Positions 27,930 through 39,581 of a stretch of DNA of 64,000 bases are shown here, one piece after another. The stretch covers positions 62,001 to 126,000 of the forward strand of contig NZ_CP139487.1 in the NCBI RefSeq assembly GCF_034259205.1, read 5' to 3'. The notes beneath the pieces are model-generated. The model was not told the origin of the DNA. It searched no databases and saw only the letters and a program-made list of their open reading frames with translations. The DNA is from Peredibacter starrii (lineage in GTDB: Bacteria > Bdellovibrionota > Bacteriovoracia > Bacteriovoracales > Bacteriovoracaceae). How positions within the stretch are numbered: the first letter of the stretch is position 1; each line of letters opens with the position of its first letter. Position numbers and translations under genes: made by a program.

Positions 27930-29458
27930 AGTGGAATGTTCCCGTGTTTACGCTCAGGACGGTTAACTTTTTTGTGCTCCAGAGCTTTAAGGTATTGATA
28001 AAGACGCTGACGAGTGATTTCCGGATTGATGATTTCATCCAGGTAACCAAGCTCGGCCGCGCGATAAGGGTTGGCAAAGTTGTTCTCGTAGTTTTCTACG
28101 TGCTTCGCTTTGTTCGCCATATCGTTACGGAAAATAATGTTCACTGCACCATCTGCACCCATAACTGCGATCTCTGCAGTTGGGTAAGAAAGATTGATGT
28201 CAGCGCGGATGTGTTTCGACGCCATAACGTCATAAGCACCACCGTAGGCCTTACGAGTAATAAGCGTGATAAGAGGAACCGTCGCTTCAGAGTAAGCGTA
28301 AAGAAGTTTAGCTCCATGACGGATGATCCCGCCGTACTCTTGAACTGTACCAGGTAGGAAGCCCGGAACGTCTACCAGAGTTATGATTGGAATATTGAAA
28401 GCATCACAGAAGCGCACGAAACGAGCGGCCTTCACAGATGAGTCGATGTCCAAACAACCAGCCAGGAAGTTAGGTTGGTTTGCTACGATACCAACTTTGA
28501 TTCCACCGATTGAAGCAAAACCAGTAAGAATGTTTTTCGCGAAGTCAGCGTGAACTTCCAGAAAGTGCTGATCATCGATCACTTCAAGAATAAGCTCGTG
28601 CATATCGTACGGCTTCTTCGAGTTATCAGGGATGAAATTCTTAAGTTTGTTGTTCGTACGAGTAACTGAGTCTGTTGTCAGTTTCGCTGTATGCTTAATT
28701 TGATTACATGCAGGGATGAACGCCATAAGTTCTCTTACGCGCTCAAAACAATCATCTTCGTCGTCACAACGGAAGTGTGCGACACCAGATTTTTCATTGT
28801 GAGTATGAGCACCACCAAGAGCGTCTTTTGTTACTTCTTCGTGAGTCACAGTTTTAATAACATCCGGACCAGTCACGAACATGTATGACGTTTTATCTAC
28901 CATGAAGATGAAGTCAGTCATGGCCGGAGAATAAACCGCACCACCAGCACATGGCCCCATGATCAAAGAGATCTGAGGAATCACACCTGAGGCCTGAACG
29001 TTACGGTAGAAAATCTCAGCGTAACCAGCAAGAGCGTCAACGCCTTCCTGAATACGAGCTCCACCAGAATCGTTAATACCGATCATCGGGATTTTGTTCG
29101 CCAGAGCGAAGTCCATCACCTTACAGATTTTTTGCGCGTGGGCCGCACCAAGAGCACCACCCCAACAAGTAAAGTCTTGAGAGAAAAGGGCAACTTGCTG
29201 GCCATTGATTTTCGCAATACCAGTTACCACACCGTCACCCAGGTACTTTTGTTTCTCCATACCAAAGTTATGACTACGGTGAACCACAAATTTATCGAAT
29301 TCAATAAATGAATCTGGATCTACCAGTTTACTGATTCGTTCACGGGCAGTGTATTTGCCCTGTTCATGTTGCTTGTTGATTCTTTCAGTACCGCCACCTA
29401 GTTCGGCTTCACGGCTGAAAGTAGCGAGTTGCTCGCGTCTTTGTTCGTTGGTCAGCAT
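27926..29458 (-). CDS. Carboxyltransferase subunit of acyl-CoA carboxylase (PccB-type)
   Basis: The 510-residue protein is a fused two-lobe crotonase-type carboxyltransferase: [15 protein letters not shown] near the N-terminus, the [14 protein letters not shown] oxyanion region, [13 protein letters not shown], and in the second lobe [14 protein letters not shown] and [13 protein letters not shown]. This is the propionyl-CoA/acetyl-CoA carboxylase beta layout. The substrate (propionyl-CoA versus others) cannot be fixed by eye. A strong AGGAGG ribosome site precedes the ATG at 29458; it is the first gene of the operon. Confidence 0.93.
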
Positions 29459-29532
29459 TCGACCCTCCTGAAATGTATCGGAAAGTTATACCTTGCTTAG
29501 ACCAGAGGGTAAAGTTTTGACACTCTAAGTAA

Positions 29533-29553
29533 AAGGCCCCAGAAAGGGGCCTT
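29533..29553 (-). terminator. Rho-independent terminator of the TIGR02147-secreted protein operon
   Basis: An eight-base-pair AAGGCCCC/GGGGCCTT stem with a five-base loop lies 26 bases beyond the stop at 29579 on the minus strand and is followed there by TTTTAC. Confidence 0.8.
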
Positions 29554-29578
29554 GAGATTAAAAATTTTGAATTTTAGA

Positions 29579-30391
29579 CTAACGGCAACCGCGACCAGAG
29601 CTGAGGTTGTAACCAATTTGGTTAAGAGAGTGGTAAACCTCTTGAATTTTCTGCTTCTTAGAGAATTCATCCATGTCAGATGTGTTAAATCTCTCAAGAT
29701 CTTCATTGATGTCTTTAAGATCCAAAATTTCGCACGAGTAAGCCGAGCTATAAACTAATTGTGTCAGTTCTGTATAAGCTGCGCCTGAAACCACTTCCGC
29801 AGCTACCAGGTAAGCGCTTGATGGGCCAAGTGGGAAAATTTGTTCGCGACGAAGCACCAGGCTGCTATTCACCACAAAAAGCATATCTCTTACCATCTCG
29901 AGCATGTTTTGCTCGAATGCTAGTGTACGAGAATAACGACAGCCAAAACGACGGGCCTGACAGCTATAAAAACGATAATCAATTTTTTCTGCGGTAGCAA
30001 AGATCAGATCATAAAAGCTTTCAAGTGCGATCGCTGTAGCTTTTGTGCCTTTCACATCTTTTGCCACTTCTTCTTTTAACATCACACCCAGGTCATGAGC
30101 GTGTGTGATAAGTCTAAGCGTAATTGGATTCAGATCCCCGTAACGTTGAGTTGAGTTGGACTTAAGTCCAGCGATCAATGAATTAACCGCACCTGTGAAA
30201 TCCCCATTCATACTGGCATTTGAAGCATCAAAACGAGCGCGCTCTAATAAACGTAAAGTGCGGTCGCAATAAGCGCGGAATTCGGCGTCCGCATCCACTT
30301 CAGTTCCATTTTGAGCAACGTGAGCAGAAGCAGTATTAAAATTTATCAGAGAGCTTAAACCTAGGAGAAGAGCAAACGTCCAATTTTTCAT
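29579..30391 (-). CDS. Secreted helical protein of unknown function
   Basis: I do not recognise a named family. The 270-residue protein starts with a signal peptide (MKNWTFALLLGLSSLINF, cleavage near ASA) and is otherwise predicted all-helical, with paired cysteines around YSCQARRFGC and two more near the C-terminus. Helix pattern and order resemble the neighbour at 30405 and the paralogues at 34235 and 35603, so I suspect one divergent family. The ATG is preceded by AAGGA; an in-frame extension to 30430 overlaps the upstream gene and is rejected. It is the last gene of the minus operon. Confidence 0.68.
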   Translation of the reverse strand: MKNWTFALLLGLSSLINFNTASAHVAQNGTEVDADAEFRAYCDRTLRLLERARFDASNASMNGDFTGAVNSLIAGLKSNSTQRYGDLNPITLRLITHAHDLGVMLKEEVAKDVKGTKATAIALESFYDLIFATAEKIDYRFYSCQARRFGCRYSRTLAFEQNMLEMVRDMLFVVNSSLVLRREQIFPLGPSSAYLVAAEVVSGAAYTELTQLVYSSAYSCEILDLKDINEDLERFNTSDMDEFSKKQKIQEVYHSLNQIGYNLSSGRGCR

Positions 30392-30404
30392 ACAGAAATC
30401 CTTA

Positions 30405-31259
30405 TTAGTAAGCGCAAGAGCGCGATTCAATTTGTTTTGTTATAGAACGAACTTCCAAAACGAAGCGGTTAAGCTTAATGGCGTCTTCTTTCGTTGAAGT
30501 TCTGCCGTCCAGATAAGTCTGAACATTGCGAGAAAGACGAACTAATAGTTTTGACTGACACTCAAGCGCGTTCGAGAAAAGAGTTTCTTTAAGGTCATTT
30601 GCTACTTCAGCACTTAGGTACGAAAGCGCCTGCATATATTGAGTTACCGGGATCGCCGTAAAGTAGGTGCTGCGATCTGATTTCAGACGAACAAATCTCT
30701 GCTCTAGACCAGTTAGTTGAGAAACTGCGATATCAACCAAGAGTTCTTCCAGCTCACGAACGCCCATTGGACGGCCCTGAGTTGAATAAGGAATATAGTG
30801 ATCACGGTCTACACGGAAGGCCACGTCCTCAATATGAAGTGTGTACCAATCCATAAACGAAAGAAGACCTTGCATATGATTGTGCTGAATCAAAGCACCG
30901 TCTGGAAGTTTCCCGCCGTTGATAACTGAAGGAATCTCGAGCAACTGAGCAAGACGAATCCCTCTTGTGATCGCGCGGTAAGTAAGTGAATTGTCCTGGG
31001 CCTGTGGAGCCTGTTCAGAACTCGCCGCCGCTGCAATAAGACCATTATAGAAAACACGAAGAGCACCGATTTTATCGTTATTATAATTAAGACGCTCAAG
31101 AGCTTCGGCACGAGTCTCTCTCACCATGATCGAAGCATCATCACACCAGTTAATCAGTGCGAAGTTCATACCACCACCGATTCCGCTTCCGCCTTCACCG
31201 GCCTGAACTGTTAGTGAAGCGAGCACCATCATTCCAGTAATCAGTTTCTTAAAATTCAT
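30405..31259 (-). CDS. Secreted helical protein of unknown function
   Basis: I do not recognise a named family. The 284-residue protein has a signal peptide (MNFKKLITGMMVLASLTVQA) followed by a Gly-rich stretch (GEGGSGIGGG) and a helical body with few cysteines (NWCDD early, ALECQS and SRSCAY late). The gene lies 11 bases after the TIGR02147 regulator and 13 bases before the next secreted protein, so all three form one operon. It resembles the product of 29579 in length, helix layout and C-terminal cysteine, which suggests an old duplication. Confidence 0.68.
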   Translation of the reverse strand: MNFKKLITGMMVLASLTVQAGEGGSGIGGGMNFALINWCDDASIMVRETRAEALERLNYNNDKIGALRVFYNGLIAAAASSEQAPQAQDNSLTYRAITRGIRLAQLLEIPSVINGGKLPDGALIQHNHMQGLLSFMDWYTLHIEDVAFRVDRDHYIPYSTQGRPMGVRELEELLVDIAVSQLTGLEQRFVRLKSDRSTYFTAIPVTQYMQALSYLSAEVANDLKETLFSNALECQSKLLVRLSRNVQTYLDGRTSTKEDAIKLNRFVLEVRSITKQIESRSCAY

Positions 31260-31270
31260 AATATCCTCTG

Positions 31271-32200
31271 CTATTCAGTTATTTGTAAAAGTTGTGAGCC
31301 GATCTGCACCACCAAATCATTGGCGTGCTGAGTATTACCGGCATACTTTTCAAGAATTTTTTTAGTAAACTCCTTCATCTCAGCTCGAAGGTTTTCGAAT
31401 TGTGAATTAGGAATACTGAGTGTAATCAACTGGGCAGCACGTTTCTCGTAAGACAGCTGTTCCATCGCCTCCGCGGCCTTAAGAGCAAATTGCTTATGAA
31501 GATTCGCTGAGCTCTTGAAGTTGGCGGCATTGTCTTCAAATAGAACCACCGGCTCAGACTGAACCAGTTTGCCTGATTCATTGCGAGTCACCAGACCCAG
31601 GGCCATCAGGTCATTCAAACCTTCAACCACTTTCTCTTTCGTGATTTTCTTATCGAGTTTTGAGATGATCCACTCCGGTTCCTCACGGAAGCCTTTCAGG
31701 GTAACCAACTCGCGTAGCACCACCAGGTGCCACTCATTTAAATAACGGTATTGGTGTTCAAGCACTTGAACCAGTTTTGCTTTCTTCCCACGAGCTCCCA
31801 CTTTCATGCGCTCAAAGAAATACAGCTTTTCTTTTTCAGTCTCGGCCTGGTTAAACATCACCATGTTTTCAAAATAGATCGCTTCTTCGGCAGAAAGATC
31901 CATGGCAGTCGAGAAACCAAGAATTGATTTAGAAGTTAGATTACGTTTGTTCTTAACAATTAGACCTAAGTAACCACGAGAGTTCTTTCCGAAACCGGCA
32001 GCATAAATGAAAGCGTTCTCTGAATAGTTTGAGTTCTTCGACTTCTTAAAAAGATACATGTCTCTTAAGAAGACGCGATAATTCATATATTCAAAGATCA
32101 CCGGTCTTTCAGTGATGACCTTGGTTTCAATCGTTTCTGTTTCTTGCGAAACAGACGCGCTGATAACTTCTTCAGTAGTTTTGGTGTCATTTCCCAACAT
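31271..32200 (-). CDS. TIGR02147-family protein (putative regulator) 1
   Basis: The 309-residue protein has the TIGR02147 landmarks: FEYMNYRVFLRDMYLFKK, AAGFGKNSRGYLGLIVKNKR, YFENMVMFNQ and the LNEWHLVVLREL block. The family is found mainly in Bdellovibrio relatives and Fibrobacter; its N-terminal part resembles a helix-turn-helix and a regulatory role is proposed but not established here. It is close to full-length similar to the protein at 37017, with an extra N-terminal tail of about 35 residues. The frame opens at 32293, but the ATG at 32200 follows AAGGA and is preferred. It leads an operon with two secreted proteins, behind the conserved element at 32236-32304. Confidence 0.82.
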   Translation of the reverse strand: MLGNDTKTTEEVISASVSQETETIETKVITERPVIFEYMNYRVFLRDMYLFKKSKNSNYSENAFIYAAGFGKNSRGYLGLIVKNKRNLTSKSILGFSTAMDLSAEEAIYFENMVMFNQAETEKEKLYFFERMKVGARGKKAKLVQVLEHQYRYLNEWHLVVLRELVTLKGFREEPEWIISKLDKKITKEKVVEGLNDLMALGLVTRNESGKLVQSEPVVLFEDNAANFKSSANLHKQFALKAAEAMEQLSYEKRAAQLITLSIPNSQFENLRAEMKEFTKKILEKYAGNTQHANDLVVQIGSQLLQITE

Positions 32201-32235
32201 GGGGCTGTCCTTGTTTAGTGCCCCAGATATATCTC

Positions 32236-32304
32236 GGGTGCTGACAACTTGGACACCAATTGTAATTTTTACACAAGACTTTCCGATGACCACCAGTCAG
32301 CAGG
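32236..32304 (-). promoter_or_regulatory. Conserved upstream element, copy A (TGCTGAC-N50-GTCAGCA)
   Basis: Read on the minus strand it aligns without gaps to copy B at 33412-33480: an exact 12-base block CCTGCTGACTGG, then CATC, AAAG, TTACAA and GTCAGCA-N-CC at identical offsets, with about 41 of 69 positions the same. TGCTGAC and GTCAGCA are inverted half-sites with centres 57 bases apart. It ends about 40 bases before the TIGR02147 start, and its distal block also overlaps the -35 region of the divergent protease gene. Confidence 0.7.
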
Positions 32305-32313
32305 TCAGAAGGC

Positions 32314-32319
32314 TATAAT
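32314..32319 (+). promoter_or_regulatory. Candidate -10 box (TATAAT) of the zincin gene
   Basis: A perfect TATAAT ends nine bases before the ATG at 32329. No good -35 and no ribosome site are visible, so transcription starting about seven bases downstream would give a nearly leaderless message. Confidence 0.4.
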
Positions 32320-32328
32320 GTCGGCCAA

Positions 32329-33411
32329 ATGAAGTGGTTATTGTTCACACTACTATATATATGTGCGACTTCCTGGGCGTTTGCCGAAGCGGCGAATGTT
32401 CGTTGGTCACGTCTGGGTTTTGTTTTCGAAGCAAAGGATGAGCTTTATCGTAATCAGCAGCAGGATCTCCTGCTCGCAAGTACTGATATCGCCGAACAAC
32501 TCTCCGATATTCAATTATCAAAACTTCCCTCTGAAGCGCGGGATAAAATCAAGCATAAAACCATCACTTTGATCTTTGAAAAGAACGCCTCGACCGATGC
32601 CGTTTTCTATCCTCCGGGAACGAAGGCCGGCAGAGGAAATGATGAGTGGATAATTACTCTTAATCCGGCCCTTATTTCGACTCCAGATTATCTTAAAATT
32701 ATCTCTCACGAGTACTTCCACGCCGTTCATTATTCCATTAATCCGAATGAAGTAAGTTGGGTGCGCGAAGGTCTGGCACAATTGTTTGAGTACCGTCTCT
32801 ATAATGGATTTAATTTTGCACACACTCACGCGGGCCTTACTAAGAATGAATTTCCCCTCGAAGCGGAGTTTGATATCAATGATTATCGTCCGGAGAAATA
32901 TGGTAATACCCTCCTCTACTTTTATTATCTAACTAGCCACTGTGATAAAGACGATACGCTTTTCTGGACTCTCGTAAATAGTGGCGGTTCAGGACGGGAT
33001 GGAATTAATCGCGCTCTTCAACTAGAAAATTCCAGCATACCTTTATGCCGAGATTTCTCTTCATCGGCAGAAGGTTTTTCACTCGCAAAAATGGCCAATA
33101 GCTATAGTGGCTTTGAGCAGTCCTCATTGACCTTTATTATGCCTTCTTCTCATCGCCTCCAAATCGATGCCCAGAAGGAGCTTTCCCTCCTCGCTAACCC
33201 AGATAAGTTCTGGTCTTCGATCCAGAGCTATCAACCTCAACGCCTCTCTTTAAAGACCGCTCAGGAACTGATTAAAACGGCTCCTGCTTCGTTTAAATGG
33301 TGGGGACTTGAAAAGAACTACCCTAATCGAATTAAGGCCCTAAAACCCCAAGATCTCATGACCCTGTCCCCTGCCTGGGACGTGGGTGTTCTTGCGACTG
33401 ACAGTCTCTAG
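32329..33411 (+). CDS. Secreted zincin-like metallopeptidase
   Basis: The 360-residue protein has a signal peptide (cleavage near residue 19, WAFAEA) and a zinc motif HEYFH at 127-131, with a probable third ligand Glu at 147 in VREGLAQLF. The HExxH...E spacing and the EGLA context are those of gluzincin/DUF4157-like proteases. The part after about 210 shows no known domain. It is likely exported and could act on prey or on the cell's own envelope. The ATG is not preceded by a ribosome site; the frame, signal peptide and motif nonetheless support the gene. It lies between the two elements with TGCTGAC half-sites. Confidence 0.8.
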   Translation: MKWLLFTLLYICATSWAFAEAANVRWSRLGFVFEAKDELYRNQQQDLLLASTDIAEQLSDIQLSKLPSEARDKIKHKTITLIFEKNASTDAVFYPPGTKAGRGNDEWIITLNPALISTPDYLKIISHEYFHAVHYSINPNEVSWVREGLAQLFEYRLYNGFNFAHTHAGLTKNEFPLEAEFDINDYRPEKYGNTLLYFYYLTSHCDKDDTLFWTLVNSGGSGRDGINRALQLENSSIPLCRDFSSSAEGFSLAKMANSYSGFEQSSLTFIMPSSHRLQIDAQKELSLLANPDKFWSSIQSYQPQRLSLKTAQELIKTAPASFKWWGLEKNYPNRIKALKPQDLMTLSPAWDVGVLATDSL

Positions 33412-33480
33412 CCTGCTGACTGGCAGACATCACAAAGCGCTATGAATTTTTTACAAACGACCGGTTCCAGGTCAGCAACC
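33412..33480 (+). promoter_or_regulatory. Conserved upstream element, copy B (TGCTGAC-N50-GTCAGCA)
   Basis: The same gap-free pattern as copy A occurs directly after the protease stop: CCTGCTGACTGG at 33412-33423, TTACAA at 33451-33456 and GTCAGCA at 33471-33477. The half-site centres are again 57 bases apart. The ATG of the next secreted protein (33521) lies 44 bases after the last half-site, versus 39 in copy A. Confidence 0.7.
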
Positions 33481-33520
33481 ATGTTACTCATTAGGAAATC
33501 AAAAGCCCTAAGGAGATCAT

Positions 33521-34213
33521 ATGAAATACATGTTGTTGATGTTTGCTTTACTTTGCTCTGGCCTAGTACACGCGGCCCTTGAAGTTGGTTCTTACGATGG
33601 TGTGGATAACGCTAGAAATGATTATGAACTTCACGTTCGTGAACTTCCAGAAAGACGTGGAAGCTTCATCGGTCTTCTTATTAATGGCAAACAATCAAAA
33701 GTTCGCGCTTATCTAATTGATGCATTCTCTTCTAGTAAGTACGGTCTTCTTTCATTACGTCTTACTGGTAACTATAATATTGGTGTAAGCAACACACTTC
33801 CATCAATCAGCTTAACAGCAACTTCAGATACACTGGTACTAACTCCAAACGGTGAAAACGATATGGGGTTCAGCACTTCAATTACATTCAAAACAAAGAG
33901 CAAAAAGCCTCTTCGTTGGTCACCACTTATTGCGGGTAACTACTCAAGCAAACAAATCGTGGTTTCAAACCTGGATGCAGAAAACGAAGCAACCATGACA
34001 AGTAAGGCGCAAGGTCTGGTTGGTGATTACGTTCTTCGCGAAACTCGCCAGGACATGTATGTGGTTCTTTCAACTCAGCTGACTTCAACTGGTGTGAAGC
34101 TTGATAAAAACGCAACTTTGTTCGCGGTATTTATGAAAGGCGGTCGCTTCGGTGGTGATCAACTCGTTATCGTAAACAGCGCTACTGGTGCAGCAGCTCG
34201 AGCTGGTAACTAA
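33521..34213 (+). CDS. Secreted beta-rich protein of unknown function
   Basis: I do not recognise the family. The 230-residue protein has a signal peptide (MKYMLLMFALLCSGLVHA) and a mature part predicted to be mainly beta strand, with a duplicated feel: GSYDGVDNARNDYELHVRE early and GDYVLRETRQDMYVVLS late both lead into strands ending in an exposed hydrophobic run. It has no cysteines after the signal. A strong AAGGAG ribosome site precedes the ATG. It heads the plus operon with the tandem paralogues 34235 and 35603 and carries element B upstream. Confidence 0.7.
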   Translation: MKYMLLMFALLCSGLVHAALEVGSYDGVDNARNDYELHVRELPERRGSFIGLLINGKQSKVRAYLIDAFSSSKYGLLSLRLTGNYNIGVSNTLPSISLTATSDTLVLTPNGENDMGFSTSITFKTKSKKPLRWSPLIAGNYSSKQIVVSNLDAENEATMTSKAQGLVGDYVLRETRQDMYVVLSTQLTSTGVKLDKNATLFAVFMKGGRFGGDQLVIVNSATGAAARAGN

Positions 34214-34234
34214 GAAGGACGCAGGAGAAACTTT

Positions 34235-35593
34235 ATGAAAACGACATCTATGATGACATTCATCCTGCTTGCCACTCTTACAGGTAAAGCATTTGCTCAA
34301 AAAAACTCAAGCCTTCCAGATATTCCAGCTCCACGTGAGTTAACGGAAGTAGGAAGTGAGTTCGCAGAAGGTACTATCACTCGTCTTTCAGATGGAGAAG
34401 CTTCGGTCTTCGTTCCATGGGCGCAAAACGCTCAATCGGTTCTGACTAAGGCCCTTCGTGATATTCAAACTATGACGGTACAACAGCAAGTTCGTCACCT
34501 GACTGCCATTATGAAGTCAGTGGTAACGAACTCTGGTTCGAAGAACTATCAGATGTTCATGCGGTTCGTACTTAACCGTACTCTTCTTTTAGTTCAGGAA
34601 ACAGTTAGCCAGTCAGACTGGAATGAGCCAGGAACAGCAGAGAGCGTTCTCGATCTTCAAGTAACTGGAATCAACCTCGCGCTTAAATTCTATGAATCAG
34701 ATTTGAGTTATCAGAGTCGCGCTAACCGCGGCAATGATGCTGTAAACCAGTCATACGCGATCTTCGGGGCCACTTTTGGTAAAGAAATGATCAGATCAAT
34801 CCAGAACATCACGGATGCCTCTGCTCAGTACCGTGTTCTGTATAAGACACTTGAAATGGTTAACTGGGACTTCTCACGTGATGCGATCGCGATTGAGTTC
34901 GCTGACGCCATCGTTGAGATTTACAACACGCTCAACACTCTTAATGAACAACCGACCAATAATGATTCTGAGAGCGTACTTGCTATCAGACGTTTAAATG
35001 TACTGGTTAATAGTGTGGCATCTGTTGAGAGAACAATTCTTCTTAGCAATGAAACAACTCGTAGAACGCTTCAGGAGCGTGAGCGTCTAGAGCGCATGCA
35101 GGCCACACAAAGACAAATGGAATTGGATGTTGCTCGCGGCATTTCAGTTATGTCGAATGACAAATTTTATGTAGTTCTTGGAAACAATGAACTTGAAAGA
35201 CATAGAGATTGTTTGTCTAAACAAACGACTAACACAGACCACATTCTGGTTATGCAAGGGAATAGAACTCCTCAAAAGTACTATAACAGTTCAAGCTACT
35301 GGTCTGCAGACACTGCTTGTCGCATGATTATCAATGGTAATTCACAGGTGGAAACATCTAAGAGCTTCAACTTTTATGGTGAAATTGAAAAGCAAGGTTA
35401 TAGCTTTCAGGCACCTTCAGTATCTTCACTCATGTACCAGTGCTACAACTTTTTACAAGAGAAAAGAATTACTCAAACGGATATCTTTTCGGTTGGAACG
35501 AACAATTCAGTTCCAAGAATTCATACGAATTCAAGTTCATACTGGAGAGGCCCGGCCAATATCTGTATGGCAATTCTGGACAAGGTTCTTTAA
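34235..35593 (+). CDS. Secreted two-part protein, paralogue 1 (helical N-domain, NSSSYW-repeat C-domain)
   Basis: I do not recognise the family. After a signal peptide (about 1-21) comes a helical domain (about 25-260), a charged coiled-coil-like linker (about 265-300) and a C-terminal part with two imperfect repeats, each containing NSSSYW followed by a Cys (positions about 305-365 and 383-448). The helical domain is about two-thirds identical by eye to that of the next gene, including QNAQSVL, KNYQMFMRF and NWDFSRD, while the C-terminal parts are unrelated. AGGAG lies before the ATG, 21 bases after the previous gene. Confidence 0.75.
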   Translation: MKTTSMMTFILLATLTGKAFAQKNSSLPDIPAPRELTEVGSEFAEGTITRLSDGEASVFVPWAQNAQSVLTKALRDIQTMTVQQQVRHLTAIMKSVVTNSGSKNYQMFMRFVLNRTLLLVQETVSQSDWNEPGTAESVLDLQVTGINLALKFYESDLSYQSRANRGNDAVNQSYAIFGATFGKEMIRSIQNITDASAQYRVLYKTLEMVNWDFSRDAIAIEFADAIVEIYNTLNTLNEQPTNNDSESVLAIRRLNVLVNSVASVERTILLSNETTRRTLQERERLERMQATQRQMELDVARGISVMSNDKFYVVLGNNELERHRDCLSKQTTNTDHILVMQGNRTPQKYYNSSSYWSADTACRMIINGNSQVETSKSFNFYGEIEKQGYSFQAPSVSSLMYQCYNFLQEKRITQTDIFSVGTNNSVPRIHTNSSSYWRGPANICMAILDKVL

Positions 35594-35602
35594 GGCATAA
35601 TT

Positions 35603-36982
35603 ATGAAACTTTTAATTCTATCGACAGTACTATTTATCGGAAACGCTATGGCCAAGGACCTTCCTCCGGTCCAGGCACCTCGTGAGTTAACAGAAACGAG
35701 CAGTGAATTCGCGGAAGGCACAATCACTCGCCTTTCAGCGGCCGATGTGGATATTTTCATCCCTTATGCACAGAATGCTCAATCGGTTTTGAACAAAGCG
35801 CTCGAAGACATTCGTTCGATGACTGTTCAGCAACAGGTGAAACACCTGACGGCCGTAATTAAGGCCGTGGTTAGGAATTCTGGTCAGAAAAACTATCAGA
35901 CCTTCATGCGCTTCTCACTTAACCGTACGCTCTTTCTAGTTCAAGAACTGGTTAAAGAAACTGACTGGGCAACTTCTGGTACAGTTGAGAATGTTCTGAA
36001 TATTCAAGTGAAAGGAATTGAGCTCGCTCTTCGTTTTTATGAATCGGATCTGGCGTATCAGCGTCGAGCTAACCAAGGTAAAGAAACAGTGGCCCTGAAT
36101 CATGCCGCCTTTGCCAATGACTTCGGCCGAACCATGCTTACTGCTACCCAAAACGTACTAGATGCTTCAGCTCAGTATCGTTTGCTTTATAAAATTCTCG
36201 AGATGATCAACTGGGATTTCTCTCGTGATCAATATGCTATCGAGTTGTCTGACACGATTGTTGAGATTTATACCACCCTTTATTCAATGGACGAAAACCC
36301 AACTGCCAACGACGCTGACAGTGTTCAAAACATTCGCCGTTTAAATACTTTGATTGCCTCTGTTGAGAAGACTTCTGGTGTCCTGAATGAGATCGCCCGC
36401 AAAAATGGCGAAGAGTTATCGGAACGTCAGCGTGAACTTGAGCGTGAAGCTATTCGCCAGCGTTTACCTTTAAAGCAGGGTCAAGCAATTTTCAACGTTA
36501 CAAACCAGAACAGCCCACTCTTAGGCGTGATTCATGAAATCAGAAAAGATACAGTCGTCCTTAAGTATTCAGACAATACCTATGGAACTGTTGCTATCAC
36601 TCAGCTTGGTTATACTACTGGCTGTGTAAAAGATATTTGTGTTGGGGATAAATTGTTCAATATGCCCGCAAACAACCAGGACCACAACTCCATGAAGGTT
36701 GTGGGCATTACTGCCGATGACAAATTTGTACTTCAGTATCTGGATGGAGAATACACGAATGAAATCTACAGTGGCTGGACTGCCCAAGTATTGTCCAAAA
36801 CCACTGGTTGTTCAGGACAACTGTGCGTGAACGATACTGTCTTTAATATGAAAAATAAGTTTCAAGCTAAAATTGTTGGGATCCAACCAGATGGAAATTA
36901 TATTCTTCAATATTTAGATGGCGAGTATACAGGTGAACGCGGCGGCGGCTGGACTGCCGAATATCTAACTAAAATTAAATAA
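35603..36982 (+). CDS. Secreted two-part protein, paralogue 2 (helical N-domain, DGEYT-repeat C-domain)
   Basis: I do not recognise the family. A signal peptide (about 1-17) is followed by the same helical domain as paralogue 1 (about 22-260) and a different C-terminal part (290-459) built of three repeats of about 55 residues, with the pattern VGD/VND-FNM, VLQYLDGEYT and GWTAQ, and Cys pairs (TTGCVKDICV, TTGCSGQLCV). The repeats look like small beta barrels (SH3- or Tudor-like), possibly ligand-binding. It lies ten bases after paralogue 1 and ends at the terminator at 36986. Confidence 0.75.
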   Translation: MKLLILSTVLFIGNAMAKDLPPVQAPRELTETSSEFAEGTITRLSAADVDIFIPYAQNAQSVLNKALEDIRSMTVQQQVKHLTAVIKAVVRNSGQKNYQTFMRFSLNRTLFLVQELVKETDWATSGTVENVLNIQVKGIELALRFYESDLAYQRRANQGKETVALNHAAFANDFGRTMLTATQNVLDASAQYRLLYKILEMINWDFSRDQYAIELSDTIVEIYTTLYSMDENPTANDADSVQNIRRLNTLIASVEKTSGVLNEIARKNGEELSERQRELEREAIRQRLPLKQGQAIFNVTNQNSPLLGVIHEIRKDTVVLKYSDNTYGTVAITQLGYTTGCVKDICVGDKLFNMPANNQDHNSMKVVGITADDKFVLQYLDGEYTNEIYSGWTAQVLSKTTGCSGQLCVNDTVFNMKNKFQAKIVGIQPDGNYILQYLDGEYTGERGGGWTAEYLTKIK

Positions 36983-36985
36983 GCA

Positions 36986-37011
36986 AAAGGCCCCAATTAA
37001 TCGGGGCCTTT
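36986..37011. terminator. Bidirectional rho-independent terminator
   Basis: A nine-base-pair AAAGGCCCC/GGGGCCTTT stem, followed on the plus strand by TCTTTTTT and preceded by A-rich sequence, separates the plus operon from the convergent TIGR02147 gene. Confidence 0.88.
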
Positions 37012-37016
37012 CTTTT

Positions 37017-37853
37017 TTAGTAAGTAACCTGAATGAGCTGCATTCCCATCTGCACCACTTCTTCATTAGTGGGTCCCACCGAGTACTTCTGCAGGATCTG
37101 CTGCGCAAAGAATCTCATTTCGTGCCTTAGATCTTCAAACCGATTCTTAGGAATACTTAGAGTAATCAATTGGGCACACCTCTTGTCCTGAGGAAGATTT
37201 TCCATCGCATCCACTGCCTTAAGTGCAAAGTGCTTTTGCAGGGCCATCGAATTTCTGAGCGTTGGAGACGTGACCTCTAACAAAATGGGCCCATCCGCGT
37301 TGACCAATTTTCCCTCTTCATTTCGAATCACAAAACCCAAACCAATAAGATCCTTGATTCCCTCATCGATTTTTTCTCGAGTAATCGTTCCCCCGAGTCG
37401 GTTCATGATCCATTCCGGATTCTCTTCAAAATCTTTAAGTTCAATCAGTTCTCTTAAAACTGAAAGATGCCATTCATTCAAATAGCGAGACTGATGTTCC
37501 ATCACCTGAAACACTTTAACGTCATTACCTTTCACATCTTTTTTCATCTCTTCAAAAAAACGGTTCTTTTCAATATCATTATCGGCCTGATTGAAGTGAA
37601 CCATATTTTCAAAATACTTGGTTTCTTCCGGACTGAGATCCATTGCTTTCGCAAACCCATCAATGGATTTCTGGGTCAGATTTCTTTTGTTTTTCACCAC
37701 TAGTCCAAGATACCCGCGCGAGTTTTTTCCAAAGCCTGCCGCGAATACAAAAGCATTTTCCGAAAAACTTGGATTGCGAGACTTTTTGTAAAGATACATG
37801 TCTTTCAGAAAGCGACGGTAGTCTACGTATTGAAAAATATCTGGCTTATCCAT
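37017..37853 (-). CDS. TIGR02147-family protein (putative regulator) 2
   Basis: The 278-residue protein aligns almost end to end with the one at 31271 (FQYVDYRRFLKDMYLYKK, AAGFGKNSRGYLGLVVKNKR, LNEWHLSVLREL), without the N-terminal tail. It is a single gene, closing the accessory locus on the right and sharing a terminator with the paralogue operon. AAGGAAGAGG lies before the ATG, and CTAATAATTAG, a perfect inverted repeat at 37871-37881, lies 18 bases upstream as a possible operator. Element A/B is not present in front of this copy. Confidence 0.82.
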   Translation of the reverse strand: MDKPDIFQYVDYRRFLKDMYLYKKSRNPSFSENAFVFAAGFGKNSRGYLGLVVKNKRNLTQKSIDGFAKAMDLSPEETKYFENMVHFNQADNDIEKNRFFEEMKKDVKGNDVKVFQVMEHQSRYLNEWHLSVLRELIELKDFEENPEWIMNRLGGTITREKIDEGIKDLIGLGFVIRNEEGKLVNADGPILLEVTSPTLRNSMALQKHFALKAVDAMENLPQDKRCAQLITLSIPKNRFEDLRHEMRFFAQQILQKYSVGPTNEEVVQMGMQLIQVTY

Positions 37854-37950
37854 ACCTCTTCCTTGTTGGTCTAATAATTAGCGTAAACGTAGAGTTGAGG
37901 GGTAACCAGAGTGCCGGAATTTTGAGGGAACACTTTTTTGAGCAAAAAAA

Positions 37951-37971
37951 AGGGCCCTGTGAGAGGGCCCT
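37951..37971 (-). terminator. Rho-independent terminator of the sigma-54 activator gene
   Basis: A seven-base-pair AGGGCCC/GGGCCCT stem with a seven-base loop is followed on the minus strand by eight T, twelve bases past the stop at 37983. Confidence 0.88.
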
Positions 37972-37982
37972 ATTAGGATTTT

Positions 37983-39581
37983 CTATTCGCCCGCTGCTCT
38001 TTTCTGAGCTCGCTTATCAAGGCCGTACTTCTCGACCTTCATAATCAGACCCGCGCGAGAAATACCAAGTTCCTTCGCAAGTTTTGACTTGTTGAAGGCA
38101 CAACGTTTTAGACCTTCACGGATCATCAGAATCTCTAGTTCTTCCAGAGCATCTTTCAGTGAACCGTTTGTGTTCACACCTTTAAGGAAGCTACCACCAG
38201 AGTGAGATGGAGCGTGACCATGAGACTCTCCGCTTTCCAGAATTCTTGAAGAAAGCATATCCGGCGTGATGTTTTTATCTTCACCCGCGATTACAACCAG
38301 ACGCTCAACTTCGTTTTGAAGTTCACGTACGTTACCTGGCCATGTGTGATCCAGCATCTTCTCAAGACACTTCTTCGAGAAGGTCTTAAGTGGAAGACCT
38401 GCTTCCTCACAACGCTTCTGAAGGAAGAAATCCATCAGGACCGGAATATCTTCCTGACGCTCACGAAGAGGTGGAAGGGCCACGTTGATCACGTTAATTC
38501 TGTAATAAAGATCTTCTCTGAACTCACCTTTAGCGATCATCTCTTTAAGGTTTTTGTTCGTTGCCGCCACTACGCGTACATTTACTTTCTTCGGCTGAGT
38601 TGCACCCACCGGCATGAACGTACCTTCTTGAAGGATACGAAGAAGTTTTACCTGCATTGATGGAGACGTGTCCCCGATTTCATCCAGAAACAGTGTTCCG
38701 CCGTTAGCAACTTCGAATACACCTTTCTTGTCCTTGATCGCGCCTGTAAACGCACCTTTCACGTGACCGAACAGTTCTGAGTCTAGAAGGTTATCGTTAA
38801 ACGCTGAACAGTTTACTGCCATGAAAACAGCATCTTTTCTTGGTGAATTATAGTGGATCGCCTTCGCCACCATTTCTTTACCGGTACCGTTCTCACCTTG
38901 AATCATAATTGTAGATTCAGAGTTCGATACTTTTGAAAGAAGGTGATAAACCTGTTGCATCTTTTTCGATTTACCAATCAGGTTATGATAACGGTATTTG
39001 TTACCGATCTCAGAGTTAAGGTCCATGATGCGAGCCTCACGCTTCGAAATTTCGTGGTGGAAAGTGCCCACTTCATCCGCAACGATCGCCACAAGTTCTT
39101 TCATCTCGTCGTAGAAGCGACCCGCGAATTTTTTAATTTTAGAAACCGCAACTTTAGCGTCTTCCTGGCCAATGCCACACTCGACAACTTTTTTAACAAC
39201 ATTCTCAACCTCTTCAGTTGTTGAAGTATCTTTGAAATATGGATAAGCGATCACCACTCCACAGAACTCATCGTCTACTACCACTTTATGTGAGTAACCA
39301 TATGTTCCCGGGAAGAAAGCATCGAACTCATAACTCATCTCTGAAGACGAGTTGAAAAATTCGAATACTTTTTCAACATCTGCTTCCAGCCAGTCATGAC
39401 CGAATGAATGAGACATTTGTAGTTTTAAGAAAGGTGATTTGAATGAATAACCCGGCTCTTGCACGAACTGCACGCGGCCTTGAGTATCAACATACAACAC
39501 GTCCAGCCCGTACCAATTACCAACAATCTTCTCGAGGCTTTTCGTAGTATGTAGATCCTTAATCGCTTTCCAATCAATCAT
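37983..39581 (-). CDS. Sigma-54-dependent transcriptional activator
   Basis: The 532-residue protein has an N-terminal sensory region of about 195 residues without a receiver domain, then an AAA+ domain with Walker A GENGTGKE (229-236), the sigma-54-contacting GAFTGA loop (276-281) and Walker [12 protein letters not shown] (293-303), an arginine-rich sensor region and a Fis-type helix-turn-helix at the end ([20 protein letters not shown]). The N-terminal part could be a PocR-, GAF- or PAS-like ligand domain; I cannot say which. AGGAG lies before the ATG at 39581; an in-frame extension to 39608 is rejected. It is a single gene whose targets are not visible here. Confidence 0.93.

Follow-up and report, generated by a model that had tools for sequence, protein, structure and literature searches.

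Gene content of the locus

The stretch of DNA analysed (the window, 64,000 nucleotides) belongs to a single-contig genome of 4.15 Mb (G000), and all eight open reading frames noted in 29579-37853 were confirmed (Table 1). They fill the interval 29458-37983, which is bounded by a pccB-like gene on one side and by a sigma54-activator gene on the other. The R1-S2-S1 series and R2 lie on the minus strand, and Z and the B-H1-H2 series on the plus strand. Six exported proteins (S1, S2, Z, B, H1 and H2) together with the regulator R1 make up a single unit. Two gene starts were corrected in the course of the analysis. S1 begins at the ATG at 30391 and not at the TTG at 30430, the beginning MKNWTF being kept in a related locus (L062), and R1 most likely begins at 32200, judging from the sequence, because a longer frame of 340 aa would cross the conserved dyad at 32239-32302.

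Table 1. Genes and sequence features of the locus (window coordinates)
Feature	Position	Strand	Description
S1	29579..30391	-	exported all-helical protein, S/H superfamily, 270 aa; orthologues in L062, L063, L064, L067
S2	30405..31259	-	exported all-helical protein, adjoins the regulator; Gly motif GGSGIGGG at mature N-terminus
R1	31271..32200	-	TIGR02147/DUF4423 regulator; gene 1 of R1-S2-S1; start corrected to ATG at 32200
64-bp dyad, copy 1	32239..32302	.	TGCTGAC-N50-GTCAGCA with TGTAATTTTTACA core, between divergent R1 and Z; proposed operator
Z	32329..33411	+	exported zincin; HEYFH at residue 127, REGLA motif downstream
64-bp dyad, copy 2	33414..33477	.	upstream of B-H1-H2
B	33521..34213	+	exported beta protein; N-terminal half calycin/avidin-like barrel in the model
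H1	34235..35593	+	constant helical N-domain and C-terminal tip; tip type also in L062, L063, L065, L066
H2	35603..36982	+	constant helical N-domain, long helix 237-287, three Tudor/SH3-like modules
Terminator-like hairpin	36985..37012	both strands	between H2 and R2
R2	37017..37853	-	TIGR02147 paralogue of R1 (59% identity); upstream dyad absent; lineage-limited, probably not core

The original prediction, which was made from the window alone, gave signal peptides to all six non-regulators and a known domain only to the zincin. Both statements agree with the present results: a simple, crude rule for predicting signal peptides, the only one used, finds a Sec signal in 6/6, and S1, S2, B, H1 and H2 fall below every Pfam cut-off. 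It had also spoken of an export system, which goes too far, since the proteins are exported but a transporter gene is absent from the locus. PDB sequence searches with H, B and R1 returned no relatives, and S2 has no second copy elsewhere in the genome at E 10.

Z contains HExxH and has weak zincin matches, and in all 19 of the 19 Z proteins of the clusters HExxH is followed downstream by EG.A. HExxH with a conserved acidic motif downstream is what defines zincin metalloproteases in general, and on this sequence evidence Z is predicted to be one. Its HExxH region aligns with the MXAN_6640 metalloproteases (NF045524; E 1.5e-8). Membership of that family was rejected, the score being 34.7 bits against a cut-off of 140. 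For B, the structure model (pLDDT 90, pTM 0.84) was compared with the 8-stranded up-and-down barrel of the calycin/avidin class; it resembles several such barrels over residues ~15-133, with middling VIA Z scores of 7-10, and a Foldseek search with it gave no match below E 0.001. Because the barrel likeness is at middling scores, this fold class is only a likely one for the first half of the modelled protein.

The S and H proteins

The S profile (34 sequences) and the profile of the H N-domain (57 sequences) were compared by hhalign with signal peptides removed and with reversed profiles and unrelated families included as controls. The alignment of the two is collinear, extends over ~190 columns and has a probability of 97% (E about 1e-10), whereas the controls (R, Z, B and the reversed profiles) give 0.5% or less. 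Because the S and H profiles align and the controls do not, S1, S2, H1 and H2 are assigned, on profile evidence, to one remote all-helical family. The single divergent family that had been proposed for these four proteins is therefore upheld for S1, S2 and the N-terminal ~215 residues of H1 and H2, but the C-terminal cysteines said to be common to them are confined to S1 and S2, where one is found. No fold name is offered for the H N-domain: the best match, a designed helical-repeat protein (Z 11.3), is under the meaningful level for helical bundles.

The two-part build foreseen for H1 and H2 is seen in the model of H2 (pLDDT 90), in which a helical bundle (46-227) is followed by a helix of 51 residues (237-287) and then by three beta modules of the Tudor/SH3-like type. 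At the DNA level H1 and H2 are 68% identical, over the first part only. The same modularity is found throughout the H proteins (~260-700 aa), which consist of the constant ~215-residue N-terminal domain and one of at least 23 C-terminal types. With decorated H proteins defined as those having an end of 60 residues or more, the ends fall into 23 families among 49 decorated proteins in 21 genomes, and tip-less H proteins stand beside decorated ones in three loci (L128, L130 and L136).

The bases and the tips have distinct patterns of relationship. The C-termini of H pairs from the same genome are unrelated in 44/49 pairs, and the median identity of the bases is 62% within a genome versus 24% between genomes. 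In one pair (L129) the bases are 92% identical and the tips unrelated. Conversely, one tip type recurs on distant bases that are only 20-30% identical to each other, as with a HEAT-repeat tip (G106 and G096) and an SH3-like tip (G000, G039, G099 and G108). Between G000 and its sister species G006, the base of H1 is 73% identical and its tip 26%, the base of H2 61% and its tip 37%, and R, S, Z and B are 45-70% identical. As judged from these comparisons, the tips of the H proteins are swapped and diverge fast. Concerted evolution was considered and is not claimed, because the nearest N-domain is in the same genome for only 23/53 H proteins.

Most tips have no Pfam family; those recognised are FGE-sulfatase (3), HEAT_2 (2), Laminin_G_3 and a beta-propeller (WD40). 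The HEAT, WD40 and SH3-like folds are generic binding folds, while some FGE-sulfatase relatives are enzymes, which counts against reading the tips as purely binding modules. The tip of H2 has a sole match elsewhere in the genome, at E 0.06. Its SH3-like module also occurs without an H base in other proteins (L076, L077, L030, L032, L033 and L046), and such proteins of relatives are exported where the N-terminus was read.

Recurrence of the cluster, its regulator and the dyad

The cluster was surveyed in 98 and then in 369 genomes of the phylum, and ~40 loci were read with home-made profiles. A scan of 84,980 species with one motif gave ten loci, each on a contig that matches in length one from the phylum survey. 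H domains were found in 29/369 genomes and 19/182 genera. The cluster order is seen again in many genera, from several families of the phylum, and its place on the chromosome varies. The order R-S-B-H with a divergent Z is found in seven loci (L072, L073, L074, L075, L119, L128 and L132), and a contig-edge fragment of it in L122. Four others (L134, L136, L137 and L140) have the same order, with an exported protein of 250-310 residues beyond the reach of the B profile in the B position; two B-position proteins from this set were taken into the B alignment. L062, L063, L064 and L067 lack R2 but otherwise have the window's S-S-R / Z-B-H layout. The original prediction, for which gene neighbourhoods in related genomes had been proposed as a check, is borne out in this respect: co-occurrence is conserved. 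The pairwise distances of R, S, Z, B and H are correlated (Mantel r 0.89-0.96, p 0.001, 15-20 loci), which indicates that the genes travel together, though it may also reflect plain vertical descent. The gene set, previously undescribed, is kept together across the phylum.

Two variants were observed in passing. In L135 (8242-10188) B and H are fused into one protein of 648 residues, which supports a physical link between them, and in L141 (5071-7500) and L142 (11396-13816) an exported protein of ~800 residues comes after S-B-H and is possibly another member of the set.

A gap of 108-129 bp separates pccB from the sigma54-activator gene in five congeners, which represents the empty state of the site; one of the five (G022) has the cluster at another place. 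In other congeners this interval, an insertion hotspot (congeners L177-L198), is occupied by one or two different genes, and the description of the locus as accessory was thus correct. Because the H domain is present in only 29 of the genomes surveyed, the cluster is not needed for predation in general.

R1 and R2 score 174.6 and 183.2 bits across the full TIGR02147 model (curated cut-off 50) and are true members of the family, as had been proposed. The exact dyad TGCTGAC-N50-GTCAGCA has two copies in the genome, one in each promoter region of the locus. With the half-sites allowed to be 0-60 bases apart, it is found nowhere else in the genome, and the reversed pattern gives 0. The half-site CAGTCAGCA alone is not significant within the window (2 found versus 0.5 expected); only the full dyad is. 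The dyad is kept in five other genomes: both copies are present in L062 and L063 with spacing 50 and at most one mismatch, the spacings in L064 and L067 are 49 (exact) and 51 (one mismatch), and that in L122, from another genus, is 49. In the R-Z copies the half-sites enclose a TGTAA-type core. A scan for sigma-70 promoters gave nothing above chance. The co-regulation of the two operons that had been suggested is in keeping with this operator-like dyad common to both, and from its position R1 would be the protein that binds it. R2, in contrast, has no dyad and was seen only in this genome among the clusters compared, which argues against a design bracketed by two regulators. Hairpins resembling terminators are found in the H2-R2 gap and immediately upstream of R2; R2 is therefore probably its own unit, and it probably lies outside the cluster core.

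The pairing of R1 with S2 has a wider parallel. Among the TIGR02147 regulators examined in this genome and its relatives, 29/41 adjoin an exported protein that has a Gly-rich motif at its mature N-terminus or close to it (strict pattern), and HExx[YHFR] occurs in the neighbours of 18/41. S2 and most regulator-adjacent S proteins of other clusters have a G[ST]x[IV]GGG-like motif. The motifs seen beside regulators in L050-L061 and L148-L174 include GNGG, GGVDVGN, CGGGTTTGNP and GTNVGGG, often with HExx[YH]. Whereas the other TIGR02147 genes of this genome have a single exported partner, several with HExx[YH], R1 has the S-B-H-Z set, and the locus looks like an expanded form of the regulator-exported partner pairing. 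In the literature searched, neither a description of a general TIGR02147 regulator-partner pair nor a mention of TIGR02147 was found; the DUF4423 protein Bd3700 of Bdellovibrio bacteriovorus is listed as upregulated in a study that is silent on the present locus (PMC12546842).

Interpretation and relation to known systems

We give about even chances to the reading that this is a regulated accessory cluster encoding an exported multi-protein assembly, with a common base and interchangeable ligand-binding tips, under the control of R1. The helical domain common to S and H would be the assembly domain and B a beta-barrel partner in the assembly, while Z, as a secreted zincin, would probably mature or release parts. 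The H subunits would carry interchangeable C-terminal modules on the common base, so that each genome would have a collection of ligand-binding tips of its own; these would most likely be displayed on the cell surface or in the part of the envelope that faces the prey. R1 would control both operons through the shared 64-bp dyad. Such an exchanged-end design would suit gripping many different partners, for example prey cells.

An envelope matrix or a periplasmic housekeeping complex, such as a surface coat, whose tips act on the bacterium's own wall with no role in predation, is considered unlikely. Sec signals in every component, the lack of a known outer-membrane anchor in any of them, and the likeness of B, in fold only, to calycin-type proteins of the periplasm or outer membrane such as NlpE and Omp19 would suit it; however, patchy presence and rapidly changing tips are both unusual for housekeeping functions. 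It is rather unlikely that the N-domain of H serves for trafficking, with the C-terminal modules acting as toxins or effector domains that are delivered into prey or competitors. The tandem H arrays and the fast divergence of the C-termini are of the kind expected, and a constant N-terminus with an exchanged C-terminus is the polymorphic-toxin layout (PMC3482391), but Pfam recognises no nuclease, deaminase, protease or pore-forming tip and leaves most tips without a family, the recognised ones are mostly repeat or binding folds, the tandem H genes adjoin one another directly, without a gene of immunity size in the gaps, and tip-less H proteins exist. That the state of S2, its exported Gly-motif partner, is what R1 responds to, with the rest as output, is distinctly improbable: Gly-rich neighbours stand beside most TIGR02147 regulators, and the regulator-adjacent S keeps its motif despite great divergence elsewhere, but a route by which an exported protein could signal to a regulator in the cytoplasm is only supposed, and the motif could be a sorting signal.

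Returning to the reading of an assembly with exchangeable tips, a bolder version of it is put forward tentatively, at somewhat less than even chances: a categorically new exported assembly specific to the Bdellovibrionota, in which a helical domain builds a scaffold (S and the tip-less H proteins) and the same domain mounts exchangeable recognition modules, with a dedicated regulator. The gene set is defined, so it can be deleted and its tips tested singly, and for H, S and B, which have no Pfam family, the analysis gives a first family definition and genomic context.

Two known systems invite comparison. Polymorphic toxin systems (PMC3482391) share with H a constant N-terminal region and variable C-terminal domains, but a toxin domain and an immunity gene are not recognised at the H loci. 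The second likeness is to the mosaic adhesive trimer (MAT) fibres of B. bacteriovorus, which, like H, are exported, number several per genome, and have a constant N-terminal part with C-terminal tips exchanged among paralogues. MAT proteins form long trimeric fibres of beta-helical build, many of them with Peptidase_S74 at the end, and one MAT tip binds a prey glycan in that related predator (PMC10769870). H proteins differ in their length, in their helical N-domain and in being clustered with R, S, B and Z. A search for Peptidase_S74 in 45 H proteins at E 0.01 gave no matches, and membership of H in the MAT fibre superfamily was rejected, there being no S74 end and the H2 model consisting of a bundle, a long helix and three SH3-like modules and not of a beta-helical fibre. 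Peptidase_S74 is present in 19 proteins of G000 at other sites, as expected of a MAT-bearing predator; many of the matches belong to tandem groups and to frames 1,000-1,500 aa long, a large MAT-like repertoire. The likeness between H and MAT is one of shared principle only, analogous and not homologous. The MAT fibres are one answer to the old question of how predatory bacteria can recognise prey of very different kinds. The present cluster has a MAT-like signature, a constant base with exchanged and fast-changing tips, built from unrelated parts and with its own regulator and proposed operator; if the proposed new assembly is real, it would solve, for a second time and by unrelated means, the problem of tip diversification that the MAT fibres solve.
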